Assembly: GCA_001792345.1 (NCBI GenBank)
Contig: MGGJ01000012.1
Location: 70,091 to 107,388 of the forward strand
Length of the DNA stretch: 37,298 nt
Direction: 5' to 3'
DNA from: Candidatus Woesebacteria bacterium RIFCSPHIGHO2_01_FULL_39_32
GTDB taxonomy: Bacteria > Patescibacteriota > Microgenomatia > UBA8517
Made by a program: the position numbers and the translations under genes. The number at the start of each line of letters is the position of its first letter. Within the stretch, counting starts at the first letter, position 1. Of this stretch, positions 3,675 through 12,252 are shown piece by piece. A model generated the notes under the pieces. It saw nothing but the letters and a program-made list of their open reading frames with translations, had not been told where the DNA came from and did not search any database.

Positions 3675-4766
3675 ATGAAGCGTTATCTTCTTTGGTTGCC
3701 CACATTAATTTTACTAATTGTAAGAATTGTCTATTTTTATCAAAACCAACCTTCATACCCTTACGGGACAATAATTAGAATAAACGATCGAGTTACTTCC
3801 GAGCCGATCCGTTACACCAACTCGCAATACATAAAGCTTCAAGGTTTCAAAATTTACTTGCCACTTTATCCCGAAGTTTATTATGGAGATGAGGTTATTG
3901 TGGAGGGCAAAGTCGAAGATGACGAGCTAAAAAATCCAAAATTGGTTGAAGTCAAAGAATCAAAAAGTGTTTTATATTCATTTCGAAAACGGTTAATTGA
4001 ATTCTACCAAAGAAACCTACCTCAACCTCACTCGTCATTAATAGCCGGGGTAACTATTGGTTCAAAAGCTTCTATTCCCAAAGACTTCTGGGAAGCTTTG
4101 AAGAGAACCGGAACCGCTCACGTTGTAGTCGCATCGGGAATGAATGTGACTTTAGTTTCTCAATTCTTAATTTCTTTTTTAGCCTTAATGCTTCAGAGAG
4201 GAAAAGCAATTCCTTTGGCTTTAATAGGAGTTTGGAGCTACGCAATTTTATCTGGATTTGATGCTCCAATAATCCGCGCTTCGATAATGGGATCTTTGGT
4301 TTTTATCGCTCAAGAGCTTGGCAGACTCAATTTTTCTATAAGAACACTGTTACTCACTGCTTTTGCAATGCTTTTTATTAAACCTGATTGGCTTGCCGAT
4401 GTGGGATTTCAGTTATCTTTTGCTGCAACGTTATCTTTAATATTATTTGAACCAAAAGTCGACAAATTCTTTCGAAAAACCTTGCCTACCGGTAGGCAAG
4501 TTCCTGATCTCATTCGCAAAGATTTTTCAACTAGTTTAGCTGCCCAGGTGGGGGTGGTACCCATTCTTTATTTTAGCTTTGGGCAATTTAACATTTTATC
4601 TCCGATTATCAATACTCTTATTCTTTGGACAATTGTACCGATGACCATGATTTCAATGTTGGGAGGACTAATTGGACTTATTTTTGAACCCATCGGTACA
4701 GTTATACTTTGGCTGACTTACCCTTTGACAAGCTGGTTTGTATGGACAGTCCAAATTTTTAATTAA
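3675..4766 (+). CDS. comEC: ComEC N-terminal part (OB-like + competence membrane domain)
   Basis: multi-TM, 'GTAHVVVASGMNVTLVSQFL' and 'WLADVGFQLSFAATLSLILFEP' typical of the Competence domain; downstream of comEA. Confidence 0.88.
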   Translation: MKRYLLWLPTLILLIVRIVYFYQNQPSYPYGTIIRINDRVTSEPIRYTNSQYIKLQGFKIYLPLYPEVYYGDEVIVEGKVEDDELKNPKLVEVKESKSVLYSFRKRLIEFYQRNLPQPHSSLIAGVTIGSKASIPKDFWEALKRTGTAHVVVASGMNVTLVSQFLISFLALMLQRGKAIPLALIGVWSYAILSGFDAPIIRASIMGSLVFIAQELGRLNFSIRTLLLTAFAMLFIKPDWLADVGFQLSFAATLSLILFEPKVDKFFRKTLPTGRQVPDLIRKDFSTSLAAQVGVVPILYFSFGQFNILSPIINTLILWTIVPMTMISMLGGLIGLIFEPIGTVILWLTYPLTSWFVWTVQIFN

Positions 4767-4785: not shown

Positions 4786-5691
4786 ATGCCGGGGCGTTAT
4801 AAATACCTATTTATCTTTTTACTTCTTATAACAGCTTTAGTTTGGATAACGGTTCTTACATATCCTAAGCAAAATCTCCGCCTCATCGCCTGTGATGTTG
4901 GACAAGGGGATTCTATCTTGGCAATTTACGGAAAAACCCAAATTTTAATTGACGGCGGACCGGATAAAAGCATCCTGGACTGTCTTTCTCAATATTTACC
5001 CTTCTGGGATAGAGAGCTGGAGGTAGTAGTTAATACTCACCCTCAAAAAGATCACTATATGGGACTAATTGAAGTCTTTAAGACTTATGGGGTTGATAGT
5101 TTTGTCGCTACACCGCTTGATTCTAGCAGTAAAGAGTACGGAGTGCTAAAAGAATTGGTGGGGAGTAAGGGGATAAGGGTCATTAACCCCCAAAGCGGTC
5201 AAAGATTGAGGATTGGTTTGATATATTTAGACATACTTCATCCGTCACAAGAATTCTTAGCAACAAATTTGCCTAGATTTTCTGAAGGTAGTAGAGAAAA
5301 TGTTTTGGGCGGTTACACTTCCAAAAAGGATCCTAATGATTTCTCGGTGGTCACGATTTTACGATTCGGTGAATTCGATGCACTACTAACAGGAGACATT
5401 AGTCAGGAAATTTCAGATGTAATAGCCGAACAGCTTATGGTGAGCGCTAGTCGAACCATTGACTATCTCAAAGTGCCTCATCATGGTTCCAAAAATGGAT
5501 TAACCCAAAAACTATTAGACGCATCAAATCCTGAAGTTGCGGTAATTTCTTCCCGCAAAAATAACTCCTACGGACATCCACATGAGGAGACACTCAAGTT
5601 ACTAAGAGATAAAGGTACTAAGTTACTAAGGACTGATGAGATGGGTGATGTTGGTGTCGAAAGTGATGGGAAGAAAGTTTGGGTTAAGTAA
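4786..5691 (+). CDS. ComEC C-terminal part: metallo-beta-lactamase domain with N-terminal TM
   Basis: CDVGQGDSILAIYGKTQILIDGG, NTHPQKDHYMGL, LKVPHHGSKNG, ISSRKNNSYGHPHEETL. Confidence 0.88.
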   Translation: MPGRYKYLFIFLLLITALVWITVLTYPKQNLRLIACDVGQGDSILAIYGKTQILIDGGPDKSILDCLSQYLPFWDRELEVVVNTHPQKDHYMGLIEVFKTYGVDSFVATPLDSSSKEYGVLKELVGSKGIRVINPQSGQRLRIGLIYLDILHPSQEFLATNLPRFSEGSRENVLGGYTSKKDPNDFSVVTILRFGEFDALLTGDISQEISDVIAEQLMVSASRTIDYLKVPHHGSKNGLTQKLLDASNPEVAVISSRKNNSYGHPHEETLKLLRDKGTKLLRTDEMGDVGVESDGKKVWVK

Positions 5692-5937: not shown

Positions 5938-6034
5938 GTTTATTTATTTGTAGCAAATAATAGGAATAAGAAAAAGGGGAATTGTTATATTTGCTTAGAT
6001 TGAAAAGCAAATTGTGAAGTTTGTAGGTTGACAG

Positions 6035-6104
6035 ACCTGTTATGACATTTTCCAGGAGCTTTAAGCGCCTGGTTTCACTTCTAAAAGAAAATGACATATC
6101 AGGT
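6035..6104. ncRNA. possible structured RNA / long imperfect inverted repeat
   Basis: ACCTGTTATGACATTTTC pairs with GAAAATGACATATCAGGT (18 positions, 2 mismatches), enclosing CCAGG/CCTGG hairpin. Confidence 0.35.
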
Positions 6105-6111
6105 TCGATTC

Positions 6112-6136
6112 ATCCCCGCAATAAAGTTGCGGGGAT
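6112..6136. terminator. strong GC hairpin, possible terminator
   Basis: ATCCCCGCAA-taaag-TTGCGGGGAT 10-bp stem followed by a weak T-rich tail. Confidence 0.45.
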
Positions 6137-6155
6137 TTCTTGAAAGTGCTATAAT
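6127..6155 (+). promoter_or_regulatory. putative promoter of T-box-like leader
   Basis: TTGCGG (6127-6132), 17-nt spacer, extended -10 TGCTATAAT (6147-6155). Confidence 0.5.
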
Positions 6156-6164
6156 TAATTCATT

Positions 6165-6426
6165 AAAATTTAATAAAAGCGTTTAATCGGAGTCGCGATC
6201 CGAAATTCGAGCTTACTCGAGACGCTTTCCCGCAAAATCGGGAACGGAAGTGCCCGTAATAGCACTAGAGTGTCACTGGGAAAACCAAGCACTTGAATAA
6301 TGAGAATTATTCTTTCTGGTTGTCCCGACATTTGTCGGGATTTTTAGTGGAAAAGAATAATTAAAGAAGGGTGGTACCGCTCGGAAGAGCCCCTTTAGTC
6401 CTGAATTAATTTCAGGATTGAAGGGG
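6165..6426 (+). promoter_or_regulatory. T-box-like riboswitch leader with antiterminator and terminator
   Basis: T-box core AAAGAAGGGTGGTACCGC; antiterminator AAGGG-[TGGTACC]-GCTC-GGAA-GAGC-CCCTT; stem III AATTATTCTTT/AAAGAATAATT; mutually exclusive terminator at 6391-6426. Confidence 0.82.
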
Positions 6427-6431
6427 TTTTT
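6391..6431 (+). terminator. rho-independent terminator of the T-box-like leader
   Basis: CCCCTTTAGTCCTGAA-ttaat-TTCAGGATTGAAGGGG (16 bp incl. 2 G-U) followed by TTTTTT. Confidence 0.88.
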
Positions 6432-6445
6432 TGTTGGAGAAAATT

Positions 6446-7693
6446 ATGGAAAGAATTGGTAACACTGACCAGATTAATTTGTGTCTGGGTATTGAAACCT
6501 CTCTGAGAAAGTGGGGTGTTGGCTATGGAAAAAAAGATAGTTTATGGTTAATTACCCCTGAATATTTTCAGGTATCAAAGCGACAATTGGAACAAATGTC
6601 CTTAACTACAAGATTATTCCAAGACCTGATGTTTGGAAAAGATACAAAAGGCATCTACTTAAGAGGCGACTTTATACCTACAGTGGAAGGCGAAATGTTT
6701 CTAGCTGAGTATAATGATACCCCAGTTGGTGAGGGTGAGATTACGGCTCTTAGGTACATTTACGACAGCTTTGTCGATTTCCCCATAGGTTATAGGTGGC
6801 CATCCACCGATGCTTCGGCTGTCGTATCACAAACCTTAGACAAGCTGTATCCTAATAAAACTGTGGGAATCGTTGTTCCACCAAGAAGAACCAGCTATAT
6901 CAAAGATTACGAAATTTTAGCCAGCAATTGTCGTGCTCTTGGTGTATCTGTAAAAGTTATACATCCGAGCGAATCGAGAGATAGTTTGAAACAAGTGGGT
7001 GTTATTTACAGAACGTTTCAAAAAAATGATTTAGAGGGCTGGGAGTTAGGTAAGTATGCGCATGAGAGGGTGCTTGATGGAAAAAAGGAGATGTTTCCCG
7101 GGTTTCCTAAGACTGACTCAAAGCAAATCATGGCTGAAGTGTTTATGAAAAACGCCGTTGACTCAAGACTTAAAGGGTTGCTTCCTTGGACTTGGGAGGT
7201 TAATCCCGAAAACCCACCGATCTTTGAAGGGGTTAAAGTTAGTTGGGAGAAAGTGCTTACTGGAGATTTTCCAATACCACTAGTAGCAAAAGCAATATCA
7301 GGTAGAGAGGCGAAACAGATGTTTTTTTCCGAAGCCGATAATGACTTTTTAAAAAGGTCAGCGAGAGAGGCTTGGATTTTAAGACTAAAAAATATTTTGG
7401 AAAATTACCAGTCGGGAGAGAAATGGATAATGCAAGAAGATTTAACTAAAAAAGTTAAAAAATATAGCTTTCCTTATCTATCGCAAGAGGTTAGGCATCA
7501 TTTTACCGGTAATGTGATTAACCCCACTCATATGGCTGTTAAGCAAAATTTGGGTGCTAGAATCTGTTTTACTTGGGTTGGTTCACATTGGTATGATTCC
7601 CAAGTAGCGGAAATTGATGTGTCATTATTGGATAACAGAATAGTGCATACTACGAGTAATAGTATTCATGTACCTGCGGTTGTTGAGATATGA
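6446..7693 (+). CDS. conserved hypothetical, possibly ATP-grasp-like (glutathionylspermidine synthase-like) protein
   Basis: ATG at 6446 has SD GGAG upstream (track start TTG 6431); motifs 'GEMFLAEYNDTPVGEGEI', 'WIMQEDL', 'WDSQVAEIDVSL'-like C-terminus (actual WYDSQVAEIDVSLLDNR). Confidence 0.45.
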   Translation: MERIGNTDQINLCLGIETSLRKWGVGYGKKDSLWLITPEYFQVSKRQLEQMSLTTRLFQDLMFGKDTKGIYLRGDFIPTVEGEMFLAEYNDTPVGEGEITALRYIYDSFVDFPIGYRWPSTDASAVVSQTLDKLYPNKTVGIVVPPRRTSYIKDYEILASNCRALGVSVKVIHPSESRDSLKQVGVIYRTFQKNDLEGWELGKYAHERVLDGKKEMFPGFPKTDSKQIMAEVFMKNAVDSRLKGLLPWTWEVNPENPPIFEGVKVSWEKVLTGDFPIPLVAKAISGREAKQMFFSEADNDFLKRSAREAWILRLKNILENYQSGEKWIMQEDLTKKVKKYSFPYLSQEVRHHFTGNVINPTHMAVKQNLGARICFTWVGSHWYDSQVAEIDVSLLDNRIVHTTSNSIHVPAVVEI

Positions 7694-8154
7694 TCAAACT
7701 AATAATTTTTGATTTCAATAGGACGCTTTTTAATGTCGAGAAAGGAAGTCTGATTCCCAGGTGTCTTGAAATGCTTGATAAATTATCCGTTAGATACGAT
7801 TTAGCTATTTTGTCAACACAAAAAAGAGGGAGGGATTTACATATACAAAAACTATTTGGAAAAACGAAAGTCAAAAATACCGTTATCGTTGATGAAAAAA
7901 GCACTGAGAACTTTCAAAAAATAATGGCCAATTTTGATGTAGCTCCTTCGGAAACTTTGATAGTGGGGGATTATCTTAAGGAGGAAATCGCAATCGGTAA
8001 TAAAATTGGCTCATTTACTGTTTGGTTTAAAAATGGCAAGTTTTCAAAAGAGAAACCTGAAAATAAATACGAGAAACCAAATTTTATTTTAAGAGAATTG
8101 AACTATATAAATTTATTAGGAATTTTAAATGCGAAGGGTTTAGAGTTAAAATAA
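7690..8154 (+). CDS. HAD-superfamily hydrolase-like protein
   Basis: IIFDFNRTLFN (motif I-like), AILSTQ, ETLIVGDYLKEEIAIGNKIG (motif IV-like); note DxN instead of DxD. Confidence 0.7.
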   Translation: MIKLIIFDFNRTLFNVEKGSLIPRCLEMLDKLSVRYDLAILSTQKRGRDLHIQKLFGKTKVKNTVIVDEKSTENFQKIMANFDVAPSETLIVGDYLKEEIAIGNKIGSFTVWFKNGKFSKEKPENKYEKPNFILRELNYINLLGILNAKGLELK

Positions 8155-8158
8155 CTAT

Positions 8159-8542
8159 ATGAAGGTTGTATCAGTAAAACCAGTAATTACTTACAAAGAT
8201 CTGGACAAGATTGATATTCGAGTGGGGACGATTGAAGAAGTAATTGATATTGAGAAGTCGGATAAGCTGGTTAAGTTGATTGTAAACTTTGGGGATCAGA
8301 TTGACGCATCTGGTTTAGTAACCAGGTGTAAAAGACAAATTGTTGTCGGTCTTAAAAAAGAACGGGAAAATCCCAAAGAAATAGAGGGGAAACAAGCTTT
8401 ATTTGTAGTTAATCTTGAGCCAAAAGAAATGATGTGGGTTAAATCTGAAGGAATGCTTTTTGATATCGGCCATGCGGACGGAATTACGCCTGTTTTAGCA
8501 GTACCCGAAAGGTTGGTACCAGATGGTACGAGGGCCGGTTGA
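8159..8542 (+). CDS. tRNA-binding OB-fold protein (CsaA/MetRS-beta-like)
   Basis: DLDKIDIRVGTIEEV...SDKLVKLIVNFG...RQIVVGLKK...EGMLF..; typical tRNA_bind domain. Confidence 0.88.
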   Translation: MKVVSVKPVITYKDLDKIDIRVGTIEEVIDIEKSDKLVKLIVNFGDQIDASGLVTRCKRQIVVGLKKERENPKEIEGKQALFVVNLEPKEMMWVKSEGMLFDIGHADGITPVLAVPERLVPDGTRAG

Positions 8543-8569
8543 GAACTATAAAAATTTATAATAAGTATA

Positions 8570-9112
8570 ATGGTTATAAAAATTATAATTGAATCCAAAG
8601 GTTATAAATCTCTACCTTTCTATATTCAGTCTGAAATTATTTACGATTTTACAGTTGCCTTCTGCAATCATTATATCGATAAAAGGTCACGCACCCACGA
8701 TCAAATGGTCCAAGCCGCAAGAAGCGGAAAACAAAATATCGCAGAGGGCTATCTTCAGAAAAGCATCGAGGGAAAGTTAAAGCTTTTAGGAGTTGCGAGA
8801 GGAAGTTTGGAGGAGCTTCTCAATGATTATCAGGATTTTCTGAGACAAAAAGGTTTAATGATTTGGGAAGTGAATTCAACCAATGCTCGAAAAGTCAGAG
8901 CTTTGGCTTATATCAATTATAAAACTTATAACGATTATAAACTTTATATTAACAACTCGGAGGACGCTGCAAACTGTATGATTTGCCTCATAAACCAAAC
9001 CAACCGACTTCTTGACCAAAAACTTCGTTGGTTGGAAGAAAAATTTGTTAAAGAAGGTGGATTTAGAGAGAATCTTTTTAAGAAAAGAATGGAATTCAGA
9101 AAAAGGCTATAG
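8570..9112 (+). CDS. four-helix bundle protein (23S rRNA intervening-sequence/IVP-like family)
   Basis: SRTHDQMVQAARSGKQNIAEGYLQKSIEGKLKLLGVARGSLEELLNDYQDFLRQ. Confidence 0.85.
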   Translation: MVIKIIIESKGYKSLPFYIQSEIIYDFTVAFCNHYIDKRSRTHDQMVQAARSGKQNIAEGYLQKSIEGKLKLLGVARGSLEELLNDYQDFLRQKGLMIWEVNSTNARKVRALAYINYKTYNDYKLYINNSEDAANCMICLINQTNRLLDQKLRWLEEKFVKEGGFRENLFKKRMEFRKRL

Positions 9113-9146
9113 CGGTTATAATAATTATAAAAGTTATAAATTTTAT

Positions 9147-11033
9147 ATGAGAGATAAGATTATTGAAGCTCTAGTAAAAGCAACCGGTTTGGAAACTGGA
9201 GAAATCCATTTGGAAACTCCGGAGAATGAGGAGTTTGGAGACTACAGCTCGAATATTACGCTGCAATTATTCTCAAAATCCCAAATCCCAAATCCCAAAT
9301 CCCAAAAAAAAGACCAATCACCAATCACCAATCACCAATCAACCGGCCAGCTTGCCCAAGAGACTGTAAGTAAACTAAAAGCAGACAAAGAAATCGAAAA
9401 GGTTGTTGACAAAATTGAAATTGCAGGTCCTGGTTTTATCAACTTTTGGCTGAAAAAAGATGTACTAGTTGATAATTTGATACAGATTGATAATGAAAAA
9501 GATAAATACGGAAGAAGTGAGACAAAAAAGAACAAAAAAGTATCAGTCGAGTTTACAGACCCGAATCCCTTTAAAGAATTCCATATTGGACATCTATACT
9601 CAAATACAATAGGTGAATCTTTAGCAAGACTTCAGGAAGCTCTCGGGGCAACTGTATGGAGGGCAGATTATTTTGGTGACGCGGGAATCCATGTAGCAAA
9701 ATCGATTTGGGGTTTAAGAAAGAAAATGCAGGAAGATAATTTAAGTTTGGATCAATTGGGCCAGAAAGAATTGAAAGAAAGAATTAACTATATGGGTCAG
9801 GGATATACTATTGGCTCAGATGTTTACGAAGAGGATAAAGATGCGAAAAAAGAGATCGAAAGACTAAACACTGTTATTTATTTGGCCGCACAGAGAATGT
9901 GGAAAGAGAAAGAGGGAAGAGAACCAATTGTTAATTACGACCCAGAAAATAAATTTTCGGAAGAAGAGATTAATGAGATTTATGAACTTTATGTAAAAGG
10001 TAGATCTTGGAGTTTGGAATATTTTGAACAAATTTACGCTAGACTCGGTACAAAATTTGACGGCTATTATCCCGAAAGTGTTGTTGGAGAGATTGGTTAC
10101 AAGTATGTTTTAGACAATTTAGGAAGCGTATTTGAGAAGAGCGAGGGTGCAATTATATATAAGGGTGAGAAAGTAGGACTTCATACAAGAGTTTTTATAA
10201 ATAAACATAATTTACCTACCTATGAGGCGAAAGAGTTGGGTTTAGCGCCAAAAAAATACGAAGATTTTAAATACGACGAATCTATCATCGTAACTGGTAA
10301 TGAGATAAATGAATATTTTAAAGTCTTAATATCGGCTCTAAAGGAAATTAATCCGAAGTTGGGTAATGCAACGCTACACTTAGGTCACGGAATGGTACGT
10401 CTTCCTGAGGGTAAAATGTCAAGTAGAACAGGTAAAATTGTAACAGCAGAGGAGATTTTGGATGAAGTAAAGAGCATGGTCTTTAAAATTCTTGAAAAAT
10501 CGGATGTAACGGAATCCGAAAAGGAAAGTATTGCAGAAAAAGTTGCAATTGGGTCGATTAAATATTCTTTTCTCAAAACTGGCATCGGCCAGGATATTAT
10601 TTTTGACTTTGATAAATCTTTGTCTTTAGAAGGGAATTCCGGACCGTATTTGCAGTACACCTATGCAAGAACACAGAGTGTTGGGAAGAAGGCACTAGGC
10701 ACTAGGCAAAAGGCACTAGATTTTCAGAAACTAATGCCTAGTCCCTATTCACTAGTGCCTAACAGCGAGGAAATCGCGCTCCTTCGTACTTTTACCCATT
10801 TTTCCGACATAATTTCTATGTCCGCTAAAAATTACTCACCCAACTTACTATGTAATTATTTGTACGATTTAGCCCAGAAGTTTAACCTTTTTTACAATAT
10901 GCACGGTATTTTAGAACAAAGAACAAAAGATAAAGAACAAAGCAATTTTAGATTGGCGTTAACCTCTGCTACTGGCCAAGTCCTTAAAAACGGACTTTAT
11001 CTACTTGGCATAGAAGCTCCCGGAAGAATGTAA
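9147..11033 (+). CDS. argS: arginyl-tRNA synthetase
   Basis: VEFTDPNPFKEFHIGHLYSNTIGESLARL, WRADYFGDAGIHVAKSIW, KMSSRTGKIV, C-terminal DALR region; likely start MRDKIIEAL at 9147 rather than 9012. Confidence 0.95.
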   Translation: MRDKIIEALVKATGLETGEIHLETPENEEFGDYSSNITLQLFSKSQIPNPKSQKKDQSPITNHQSTGQLAQETVSKLKADKEIEKVVDKIEIAGPGFINFWLKKDVLVDNLIQIDNEKDKYGRSETKKNKKVSVEFTDPNPFKEFHIGHLYSNTIGESLARLQEALGATVWRADYFGDAGIHVAKSIWGLRKKMQEDNLSLDQLGQKELKERINYMGQGYTIGSDVYEEDKDAKKEIERLNTVIYLAAQRMWKEKEGREPIVNYDPENKFSEEEINEIYELYVKGRSWSLEYFEQIYARLGTKFDGYYPESVVGEIGYKYVLDNLGSVFEKSEGAIIYKGEKVGLHTRVFINKHNLPTYEAKELGLAPKKYEDFKYDESIIVTGNEINEYFKVLISALKEINPKLGNATLHLGHGMVRLPEGKMSSRTGKIVTAEEILDEVKSMVFKILEKSDVTESEKESIAEKVAIGSIKYSFLKTGIGQDIIFDFDKSLSLEGNSGPYLQYTYARTQSVGKKALGTRQKALDFQKLMPSPYSLVPNSEEIALLRTFTHFSDIISMSAKNYSPNLLCNYLYDLAQKFNLFYNMHGILEQRTKDKEQSNFRLALTSATGQVLKNGLYLLGIEAPGRM

Positions 11034-11034
11034 A

Positions 11035-12252
11035 ATGATAGATAGACTCCAACAAGCTCCACCCGAAATTTTACCTGTTGGAGAGGGTGTACCGTTTTAT
11101 TCTGAAAAAGTTCCTGGAGATGTAGAAAGAGGTTTGGGTGGAATGTATGGTGGATGGGGGAGGCGGGTTCCAAATGAAAACCTACCGTCATATGTTGCAG
11201 ATTTCCTCGGAAGATCACTTGACCCTAACGAAATACTCGAGCTTGAGTCTAAGGGATTTAAATCACGGTACTCTACTTTACATCTCAGATCTGATGATCA
11301 AAAACTTGAACAAGCTCTTGCGGAAACTCTGGTTGGAATGAAGAGTGTTGAAGGAGCTATTTGGGAGAATGGTTGGGATTCTAGTGAAATTGATGCTGTG
11401 GTTATTGGAATGTCTTCACCCTTGGATCCTGATTTTACAGTTGATTTAGCAAATCTTTCGGGGATATCGCCATACGCTAAAAAAGTGACGGTACACACTG
11501 CCTGTGATAGTTCTATGCGAGGTCTAAATTGGGTACTAGATCCGAAGAATGGATTATACGGAAAGAAAGTAATTCTTGGAGGCCTGGAAAATTTAAGTAG
11601 AAGTTTGACCGGCGGAGACGGTACACGACCAACTAAAGATACACAAGCCTTACAACTTTTTGCAAACGCAGTTGGATTTATAGGAATTGTCCCAGGAGTA
11701 TCAATTCAACCAATAGCTGTTAGGTCAGAGACTAAGTACGACGAAAAAGCCGCACTTCAAGTTGCTGTTAATTACCCAATGCCGACGCAGGGGGAAAATG
11801 TTGCGGAAAAGTATGATAGTTCTAAAAATCATTTAACAATATCAGGGAGAATTCCAAAACCTGGTGACGGTACAGGTGTAGTTATGGCTAATAATAAGGA
11901 AATGCTTAAGCTTTTCGGAATTAATACAGCAGAAATAGTTAAGCAAATTTTGATTGAGATGCAAGAAAACTTGGGACTACAAGGTGATCCGAACGCCTGG
12001 TTTCAATGGGTAGTAATGCACCATGCAAATTTAAAAATTATCGAGTTTCAAAGCAAAAAGCTCGGAAATGATAATTATCCTTTGGATTTGGCTGCATACT
12101 GGGTCGTTAATGAATTTGGTAACGTTAGTGCCGCCTCACCTATGATTTCTTGGCTAAGACAAAGTCAGAATATGGTTTCGGGTACTAGGGGACTTTTTAT
12201 TGGCTATGGAGCAGGCGGACATTACGACGTTATTGCTGCAGAAGTACCGTAG
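11035..12252 (+). CDS. beta-ketoacyl-ACP synthase III-like (thiolase fold)
   Basis: VHTACDSSMRGLNW (Cys), VVMHHANLKIIEF (His), VNEFGNVSAASPM (Asn). Confidence 0.78.
   Translation: MIDRLQQAPPEILPVGEGVPFYSEKVPGDVERGLGGMYGGWGRRVPNENLPSYVADFLGRSLDPNEILELESKGFKSRYSTLHLRSDDQKLEQALAETLVGMKSVEGAIWENGWDSSEIDAVVIGMSSPLDPDFTVDLANLSGISPYAKKVTVHTACDSSMRGLNWVLDPKNGLYGKKVILGGLENLSRSLTGGDGTRPTKDTQALQLFANAVGFIGIVPGVSIQPIAVRSETKYDEKAALQVAVNYPMPTQGENVAEKYDSSKNHLTISGRIPKPGDGTGVVMANNKEMLKLFGINTAEIVKQILIEMQENLGLQGDPNAWFQWVVMHHANLKIIEFQSKKLGNDNYPLDLAAYWVVNEFGNVSAASPMISWLRQSQNMVSGTRGLFIGYGAGGHYDVIAAEVP

Follow-up and report, generated by a model that had tools for sequence, protein, structure and literature searches.

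We identified positions 6176-6432 of the window (the whole stretch of DNA analyzed, 37,298 nucleotides) as a transcriptional T-box leader upstream of the arginine-tRNA-ligase (argS) operon, and from its sequence and relatives we consider it, with a probability of about 0.87, to be a tRNA-Arg-responsive element that attenuates this operon. The leader appears to be a new T-box form, compact and equipped with two terminators. Its parts, the specificity match, their conservation and the mutual exclusion by pairing are supported directly by sequence and comparison (Table 1). The leader is flanked on its 5' side by a probable promoter (TG-n-TATAAT, 6147-6155) and on its 3' side by gene 1 (ATG at 6446); a simple promoter scan favored a shifted pair, TTGAAA/TAAAAT at 6140-6169, over the TATAAT at 6150-6155. 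The source genome (1.17 Mb, 95% complete; G000) was recognized from the window alone as CPR-like, and it does belong to the Patescibacteria (CPR).

An Infernal comparison with the Rfam model RF00230 had been proposed as a check on the original prediction of a T-box, and it supported that prediction. A permissive Rfam scan matched the model at its full length with 43.1 bits (E = 3.8e-8; 701 bases), and a genome-wide search of the 1.17 Mb gave E = 1.5e-8, but the score does not reach half of the 93-bit gathering score, which is a statistical cut-off and not a statement about mechanism. A default Rfam gathering scan therefore misses the leader. Matches of the leader to GcvB, ncr1575 and carA were sub-threshold, at chance level, and were rejected. 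The predicted fold of the leader is markedly stable, at -104.2 kcal/mol versus -68.6 ± 4.9 kcal/mol for shuffled sequences (z = -7.35).

Table 1. Positions of promoter, leader elements, operon genes and cognate tRNA gene (window coordinates unless another locus is given).
Feature	Position	Strand	Details
Probable -10 box TATAAT	6150-6155	+	TG two bases 5'; start near 6162; read from sequence
Stem I, branched	6176-6228	+	Base AAAGCGT 6176-6182 / ACGCTTT 6222-6228; minimum free energy (MFE) fold
Specifier hairpin	6187-6203	+	TCGGA 6187-6191 / TCCGA 6199-6203; 7-nt loop GTCGCGA 6192-6198
Specifier codon CGC (Arg)	6194-6196	+	Loop slot compared across relatives
Second hairpin inside stem I	6207-6220	+	TCGAG 6207-6211 / CTCGA 6216-6220; MFE fold
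Short stem II hairpin	6227-6244	+	TTCCCG / CGGGAA; loop CAAAAT (A-rich, conserved)
Stem IIA/B pseudoknot	6244-6266	+	ACGG 6244-6247 / CCGT 6254-6257; AGTGC 6249-6253 / GCACT 6262-6266
Proposed antiterminator 1, 5' strand	6267-6288	+	Pairs with 6317-6333; duplex -18.8 kcal/mol
Extra conserved hairpin (GUGUC hairpin)	6269-6293	+	AGTG 6269-6272 / CACT 6290-6293; Rfam alignments
Stem III	6305-6362	+	AATTATTCTTT 6305-6315 / AAAGAATAATT 6352-6362; 5' AATGAG, 3' AA; 11 perfect pairs
Proposed antiterminator 1, 3' strand	6317-6333	+	Covers 5' arm and loop of terminator 1
Nested intrinsic terminator 1, in stem III loop	6323-6345	+	TCCCGAC 6323-6329, ATTT, GTCGGGA 6334-6340, T5 6341-6345
T-box antiterminator	6367-6395	+	AAGGG 6367-6371; bulge TGGTACC 6372-6378; A1 CCCTT 6391-6395
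Antiterminator A2	6379-6390	+	GCTC 6379-6382 / GAGC 6387-6390; GGAA loop
Terminator 2	6390-6432	+	CCCCTTTAGTCCTGAA 6390-6405 / TTCAGGATTGAAGGGG 6411-6426; T6 6427-6432; 16 pairs counting G-U
Gene 1, 415 aa	6446-7693	+	
HAD-type phosphatase-like gene	7690-8154	+	
tRNA-binding domain protein	8159-8542	+	MetG C-terminal/Arc1p-like
Four-helix bundle protein	8570-9112	+	Similar to 23S rRNA-intervening-sequence protein
argS, fifth gene	9147-11033	+	ORF opens 9012, likely ATG start 9147; TIGR00456 364.8 bits, over cut-off
tRNA-Arg, anticodon GCG	L122 1499-1573 (G000 C2)	minus	

The specifier had been left unassigned in the original prediction; comparison of relatives gives CGC. Relatives with the same element share a 5-bp hairpin with an invariant A-U closing pair and a 7-nt loop of the form GU-NNN-GA, in which we observed three values of NNN: CGC, CAC and UGC. 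The CGC slot precedes argS operons (the window and L079), argH (L096, L106, L110) and argF (L143, L174), and also occurs in L027, L036 and a few others ahead of genes of unknown role. CAC precedes hisS (L089, L090, L098), hutH (L104) and tRNA-His genes (sixteen distinct places), and UGC was found in L092, ahead of a gene of the cystathionine beta-synthase/cysteine synthase family. Gene identities came from HMM matches, that of the argF of L143 among them; those for L090, L098 and L174 were read from translations or sequence. A pattern search of 374 genomes with NNN left free returned 33 matches, 29 of them CAC or CGC, and the reversed control pattern matched nowhere in the same 374 genomes. 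The T-box bulge tracks the amino acid as well: it is UGGG in His leaders (tRNA-His has C73), UGGA in the Cys leader, and UGGU or UGGC in Arg leaders.

The source genome encodes a tRNA-Arg(GCG) whose anticodon is the exact complement of CGC; most bacteria have the anticodon ACG instead. Its A73 fits UGGU, so the bulge is complementary to its ACCA end, the kind of tRNA end that the original prediction had matched to this bulge. Short of experiment, and judged from sequence, the cognate tRNA is settled as tRNA-Arg; the suggestion of tRNA-Arg made at the outset is supported by codon, by tRNA and by the argS, argH and argF genes downstream of the same element. Anticodon loops are laid out as U33, the triplet, a purine at 37 and A38, and the GU-NNN-GA loop on its 5-bp stem has the same layout. 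By analogy, the loop could contact the anticodon loop-to-loop, like a pair of complementary anticodons, a proposal to which we give even odds.

Within the 53-nt stem I of the window, the second hairpin creates a three-way junction, unlike most relatives. The stem I base and its two hairpins had been drawn this way in the original prediction, and the same branched plan recurs with other sequences in the Arg leaders L110 and L174. An alternative base, AAGC 6177-6180 / GCTT 6211-6214, is possible and lies closer to the form of the relatives. Ultrashort stem I T-boxes have a K-turn at the base of stem I; in the relatives an asymmetric internal loop separates AGC/GCU from the specifier hairpin, and in the window the three-way junction takes its place.

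At the 3' end of the leader, every element of the T-box antiterminator is present as originally described. Antiterminator and terminator 2 share positions 6390-6396, and because this strand is common to both, the antiterminator excludes the 16-bp terminator, again as described. Terminator 2 has a predicted energy of -26.1 kcal/mol versus -9.1 for the antiterminator alone. Relatives conserve both the bulge and the terminator/antiterminator pairing, so the outcome named beforehand as refuting a T-box did not occur. The G-U wobble at the base of A2, which has been described as a steric sensor (PMC7583486), is absent from the leader, where the pair is G6379-C6390; the A2 base is G-C or A-U in several relatives too.

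Alignment of 39 leaders supported the upstream architecture. Across the specifier stem, stem I base, stem II, IIA, IIB pseudoknot strand and GUGUC hairpin base, 92.2% of cells were paired and 19 of 24 pairs changed on both sides; the covariation score of 0.521 (0.178 ± 0.011 when shuffled) was reached by none of 500 shuffles, and pairing fell to 20-41% when columns were slid by one to three. The specifier stem was 100% paired, with four of its five pairs altered on both sides. Stem II was 93.8% paired (5/5 pairs with double-sided changes), in a region where the row of the window is imperfectly placed. Both helices of IIA/B, an element with the F-box-like CCCGTAA, covary; the pseudoknot helix was 87% paired (4/4 pairs with double-sided changes). 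The base of the GUGUC hairpin was 82% paired, and its strict motif occurred in 32 of 96 leaders versus 5.4 when shuffled. T-box stem III is described as flanked by purines, RRRxG and AA (PMC7583486): in the leader the 3' AA is present and the 5' AATGAG fits RRxG only. The pseudoknot, the hairpin at 6269-6293 and the nested terminator at 6323-6345 had not been part of the original prediction. The GUGUC hairpin and the nested-terminator stretch are insertions relative to the Rfam T-box consensus.

A nested hairpin followed by a U tract was present in 24 of the 96 related leaders, 37-54 nt 5' of the T-box; the reverse strand gave 3 and shuffled sequences 0.3. These hairpins have unrelated sequences across leaders, are G+C-rich and carry 5-6 U directly 3', and the stem III that encloses them averages 9.8 pairs versus 6.6 in shuffles. 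His leaders have a comparable hairpin, GGACC-GCGGGA-GGUCC-U6-7, inside the antiterminator, where it overlaps the tRNA-binding bulge. A control on viral contigs proved poor and was set aside, with about 3 real-looking T-boxes (L261, L271, L274) among its 14 motif matches; we therefore base the statement that Firmicutes T-boxes have no nested terminator on the insertions relative to the Rfam consensus.

The 5' arm of terminator 1 can pair with the GUGUC region upstream (proposed antiterminator 1), in the window through 6268-6274/6327-6333, 6278-6281/6323-6326 and 6283-6287/6317-6321. The window duplex is by itself modestly unusual (p = 0.03 versus shuffles of the site). Over 28 leaders, the duplex between GUGUC region and terminator 1 of the same leader averaged -12.8 kcal/mol, versus -9.8 ± 0.47 when partners were permuted between leaders, and none of 5000 permutations was as good; 17 non-redundant leaders gave z = -4.3. 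Four control region pairs also showed a slight same-leader excess, with z from -1.2 to -2.4. For stem II/IIA-B and the nested terminator, pairing found no support over permutation (z = -1.6). The fold predicted for the nascent RNA contains the antiterminator-1 helix and switches once the terminator's 3' arm has been transcribed. Terminator 1 is the minimum free energy structure once fully transcribed, and escape must therefore be kinetic or ligand-driven. On these modeled folds, the T-box switch is preceded by another switch between mutually exclusive structures. Three leaders ahead of tRNA-His or hisS (L086, L090 and L098, at about 1500-1700) have stem I with a CAC loop, IIA/B, the GUGUC hairpin and a terminator, and in them the T-box antiterminator sequence is absent, which suggests that the first switch may act alone.

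We infer tRNA dependence, the direction of both switches and the starvation logic as follows. As in known T-boxes, uncharged tRNA-Arg would base-pair at two places, the anticodon with CGC and the free 3' end with UGGU; once bound, it would hold the antiterminator, so that RNA polymerase would read into gene 1 and on through argS. Charged tRNA-Arg would be unable to pair with the bulge, terminator 2 would form and the operon would be off. At an earlier step, which we propose here, polymerase would meet terminator 1 inside stem III and would avoid it when 6267-6288 pairs with its 5' arm. Binding of the tRNA at stem I/II/IIA-B may shift this choice to read-through, so that the leader would ask whether tRNA-Arg is bound and then whether it is uncharged; we hold this reading at just under even odds. 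More tentatively still, we propose a two-checkpoint T-box of Patescibacteria, in which an anticodon-arm-like hairpin would read the anticodon, the tRNA would overcome the nested terminator via the GUGUC-region antiterminator, the aminoacylation test would follow, and the first module would work alone, without T-box sequence, before hisS and tRNA-His genes.

Other readings of the specifier and of the whole element were weighed against the same comparisons. Reading the specifier as GCG (Ala) would leave an A behind it, in keeping with the purine that usually follows a T-box specifier, and the genome encodes a tRNA-Ala(CGC). The same shift by one gives ACG in the hisS and tRNA-His leaders and GCG in the cysteine leader, neither of which fits, and the downstream genes are argS, argH, argF, hisS and hutH; we regard the alanine reading as extremely improbable. 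A Val (GUC) reading was likewise rejected on disagreement with the downstream genes. The tRNA response might also have been lost, leaving a degenerate T-box or an unrelated attenuator, as could be argued from the sub-threshold Rfam score and the missing stem II S-turn and A2 G-U pair. A leader that is conserved, covaries and fits tRNA-Arg at both contacts argues against such loss, which we judge very unlikely.

A stronger challenge to the two-checkpoint T-box is that the leader is an ordinary short-stem-I T-box, in which the nested hairpin and U tract serve as a pause or a stem III cap and terminator 2 alone decides. A pause ahead of the antiterminator would allow time for tRNA binding, and 72 of the 96 relatives have no detectable nested terminator and yet should work. 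On the other hand, a G+C-rich hairpin followed directly by 5-6 U, of unrelated sequence from leader to leader, describes a terminator and not a cap; the same leader has a strand further 5' that fits its 5' arm; and in L086, L090 and L098 the upstream parts are retained together with a terminator but without the T-box antiterminator. We consider the pause or cap a serious contender, if somewhat short of an even chance.

Several known systems come close to the leader. With the Firmicutes type described by RF00230 it shares the codon-anticodon contact, the IIA/B pseudoknot with its F-box-like sequence, stem III, the UGGN bulge for the tRNA 3' end, the exclusive terminator and a cognate synthetase gene in the operon. 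Unlike that type, it lacks a long stem I that contacts the tRNA elbow (the distal AG bulge/terminal loop of the long stem I class is not in the 53-nt branched stem I), displays the specifier in an apical loop, has a short stem II without S-turn and G-C in place of G-U at the A2 base, and adds both a hairpin between IIA/B and stem III and a second terminator inside stem III. Ultrashort stem I T-boxes, found at actinobacterial ileS and mostly translational (PMC7583486, PMC10651847), likewise present the specifier in an apical loop with the IIA/B pseudoknot adjacent. In contrast to these, the window leader ends in a terminator rather than in sequestration of the ribosome-binding site, its stem I is branched, and a short CAAAAU-loop hairpin stands in place of the stem II S-turn; the fixed GU-NNN-GA loop on a 5-bp stem, the invariant A-U closing pair and the use of Arg, His and Cys codons also set these leaders apart. 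The GU-NNN-GA hairpin adds a compact way of displaying a codon.

Three RF00230 matches were found in the source genome: L001 (82.8 bits; C13), the window (43.1) and L003 (33.4; C9). The operon downstream of L001 contains two tyrS genes, the first identified by HMM and the second read from its translation. L001 resembles the window leader in its GUGUC-type hairpin and in the nested terminator in stem III, and differs in its score, full stem I, UAC specifier and two-tyrS operon. L003 (C9:10961-11107, minus strand) lies directly upstream of aspS (read from translation) and does keep an AGTAGAA-type stem II. Its apical loop carries AAC (Asn) and not an Asp codon, which would fit a non-discriminating AspRS.

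RF00230 matched 95 of 287 sampled Patescibacteria genomes at E <= 0.001; among close relatives, 47 of 95 matched at 0.01. Five named control genomes were positive at these thresholds, and all come from groups with reported T-boxes. Within the class, model R1, made from the GU-NNN-GA leaders, matched 112 of 374 genomes (1e-4), a count that also takes in other T-box forms, and across 84,980 species the exact motif occurred only in Patescibacteria or unnamed MAGs. The original prediction's remark that T-boxes are best known from Firmicutes and Actinobacteria understates their presence here. In a published survey, T-boxes were abundant in Firmicutes alone and few in Actinobacteria, Chloroflexi, Deinococcus and two Proteobacteria; the survey left open whether they were invented in Firmicutes or lost elsewhere (PMC2494555); their occurrence in a third of the sampled Patescibacteria genomes bears directly on this question. 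No published T-boxes in Patescibacteria, and no report of T-boxes directly before tRNA genes, were found in the literature searched. We claim a new T-box form and not the first Patescibacteria T-box, because the 23,535 entries of TBDB may include members of candidate phyla. Riboswitches appear in a 2024 review solely as tools for engineering (PMC11665869); the leader is a native, testable tRNA-sensing switch for hard-to-grow Patescibacteria.

Downstream, argS lies four genes after gene 1, as originally noted. On the plus strand we saw no strong terminator between genes from 6446 to 12252 and a single weak hairpin, within argS. Gene 1 had been called ATP-grasp-like; Pfam/NCBIfam and a PDB sequence search returned no match, and no ATP-grasp domain was detectable. 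The label is conceivable though unproven, since the Tyr operon opens with a gene that has a PPDK_N ATP-binding domain. The AlphaFold model of gene 1, from a two-row alignment, has a pLDDT of 33. One relative was found in the family, 29-30% identical and beside a HAD gene and lysS (L182), and a whole-GTDB scan was without a relative. Upstream, window 6004-6143 is strongly structured, with a long hairpin ACCTG..CAGGT (~6035-6108) and then a terminator-like hairpin CCCCGC/GCGGGG; this is possibly a small RNA or another leader remnant. Still further 5', ComEC is encoded as two ORFs (3675-4766, membrane domain, and 4786-5691, metallo-beta-lactamase-like domain), behind comEA-like and leuS genes.

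His-type leaders sit directly 5' of tRNA-His in L085, L086, L088, L091, L099, L100, L101, L107 and L108 and again in L144, L163, L167 and L211-L214, and L019 has a Tyr T-box upstream of tRNA-Tyr. These place T-boxes directly upstream of tRNA genes, which, to judge by this arrangement, they would control. The source genome itself has two tRNA-Tyr genes (C13:18486-18556, L114, and C13:151265-151349, L138), one only 71 nt long, without a long variable arm and just upstream of the Tyr T-box, whose operon holds the two tyrS genes (L005 11282-13809); the genome possibly carries a second tRNA-Tyr/TyrRS pair. Tandem T-boxes occur in L055 (G058 C3:25376-25700), the first with a GGC (Gly) apical loop. 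The same family includes further very short T-boxes: apparently thrS leaders with antiterminators AGTGGAACCACGG (UGGA bulge) in L054, L057, L064 and L065, and in L058, L067, L069 and L075 apparent trpS leaders whose tiny apical loops carry UGG.
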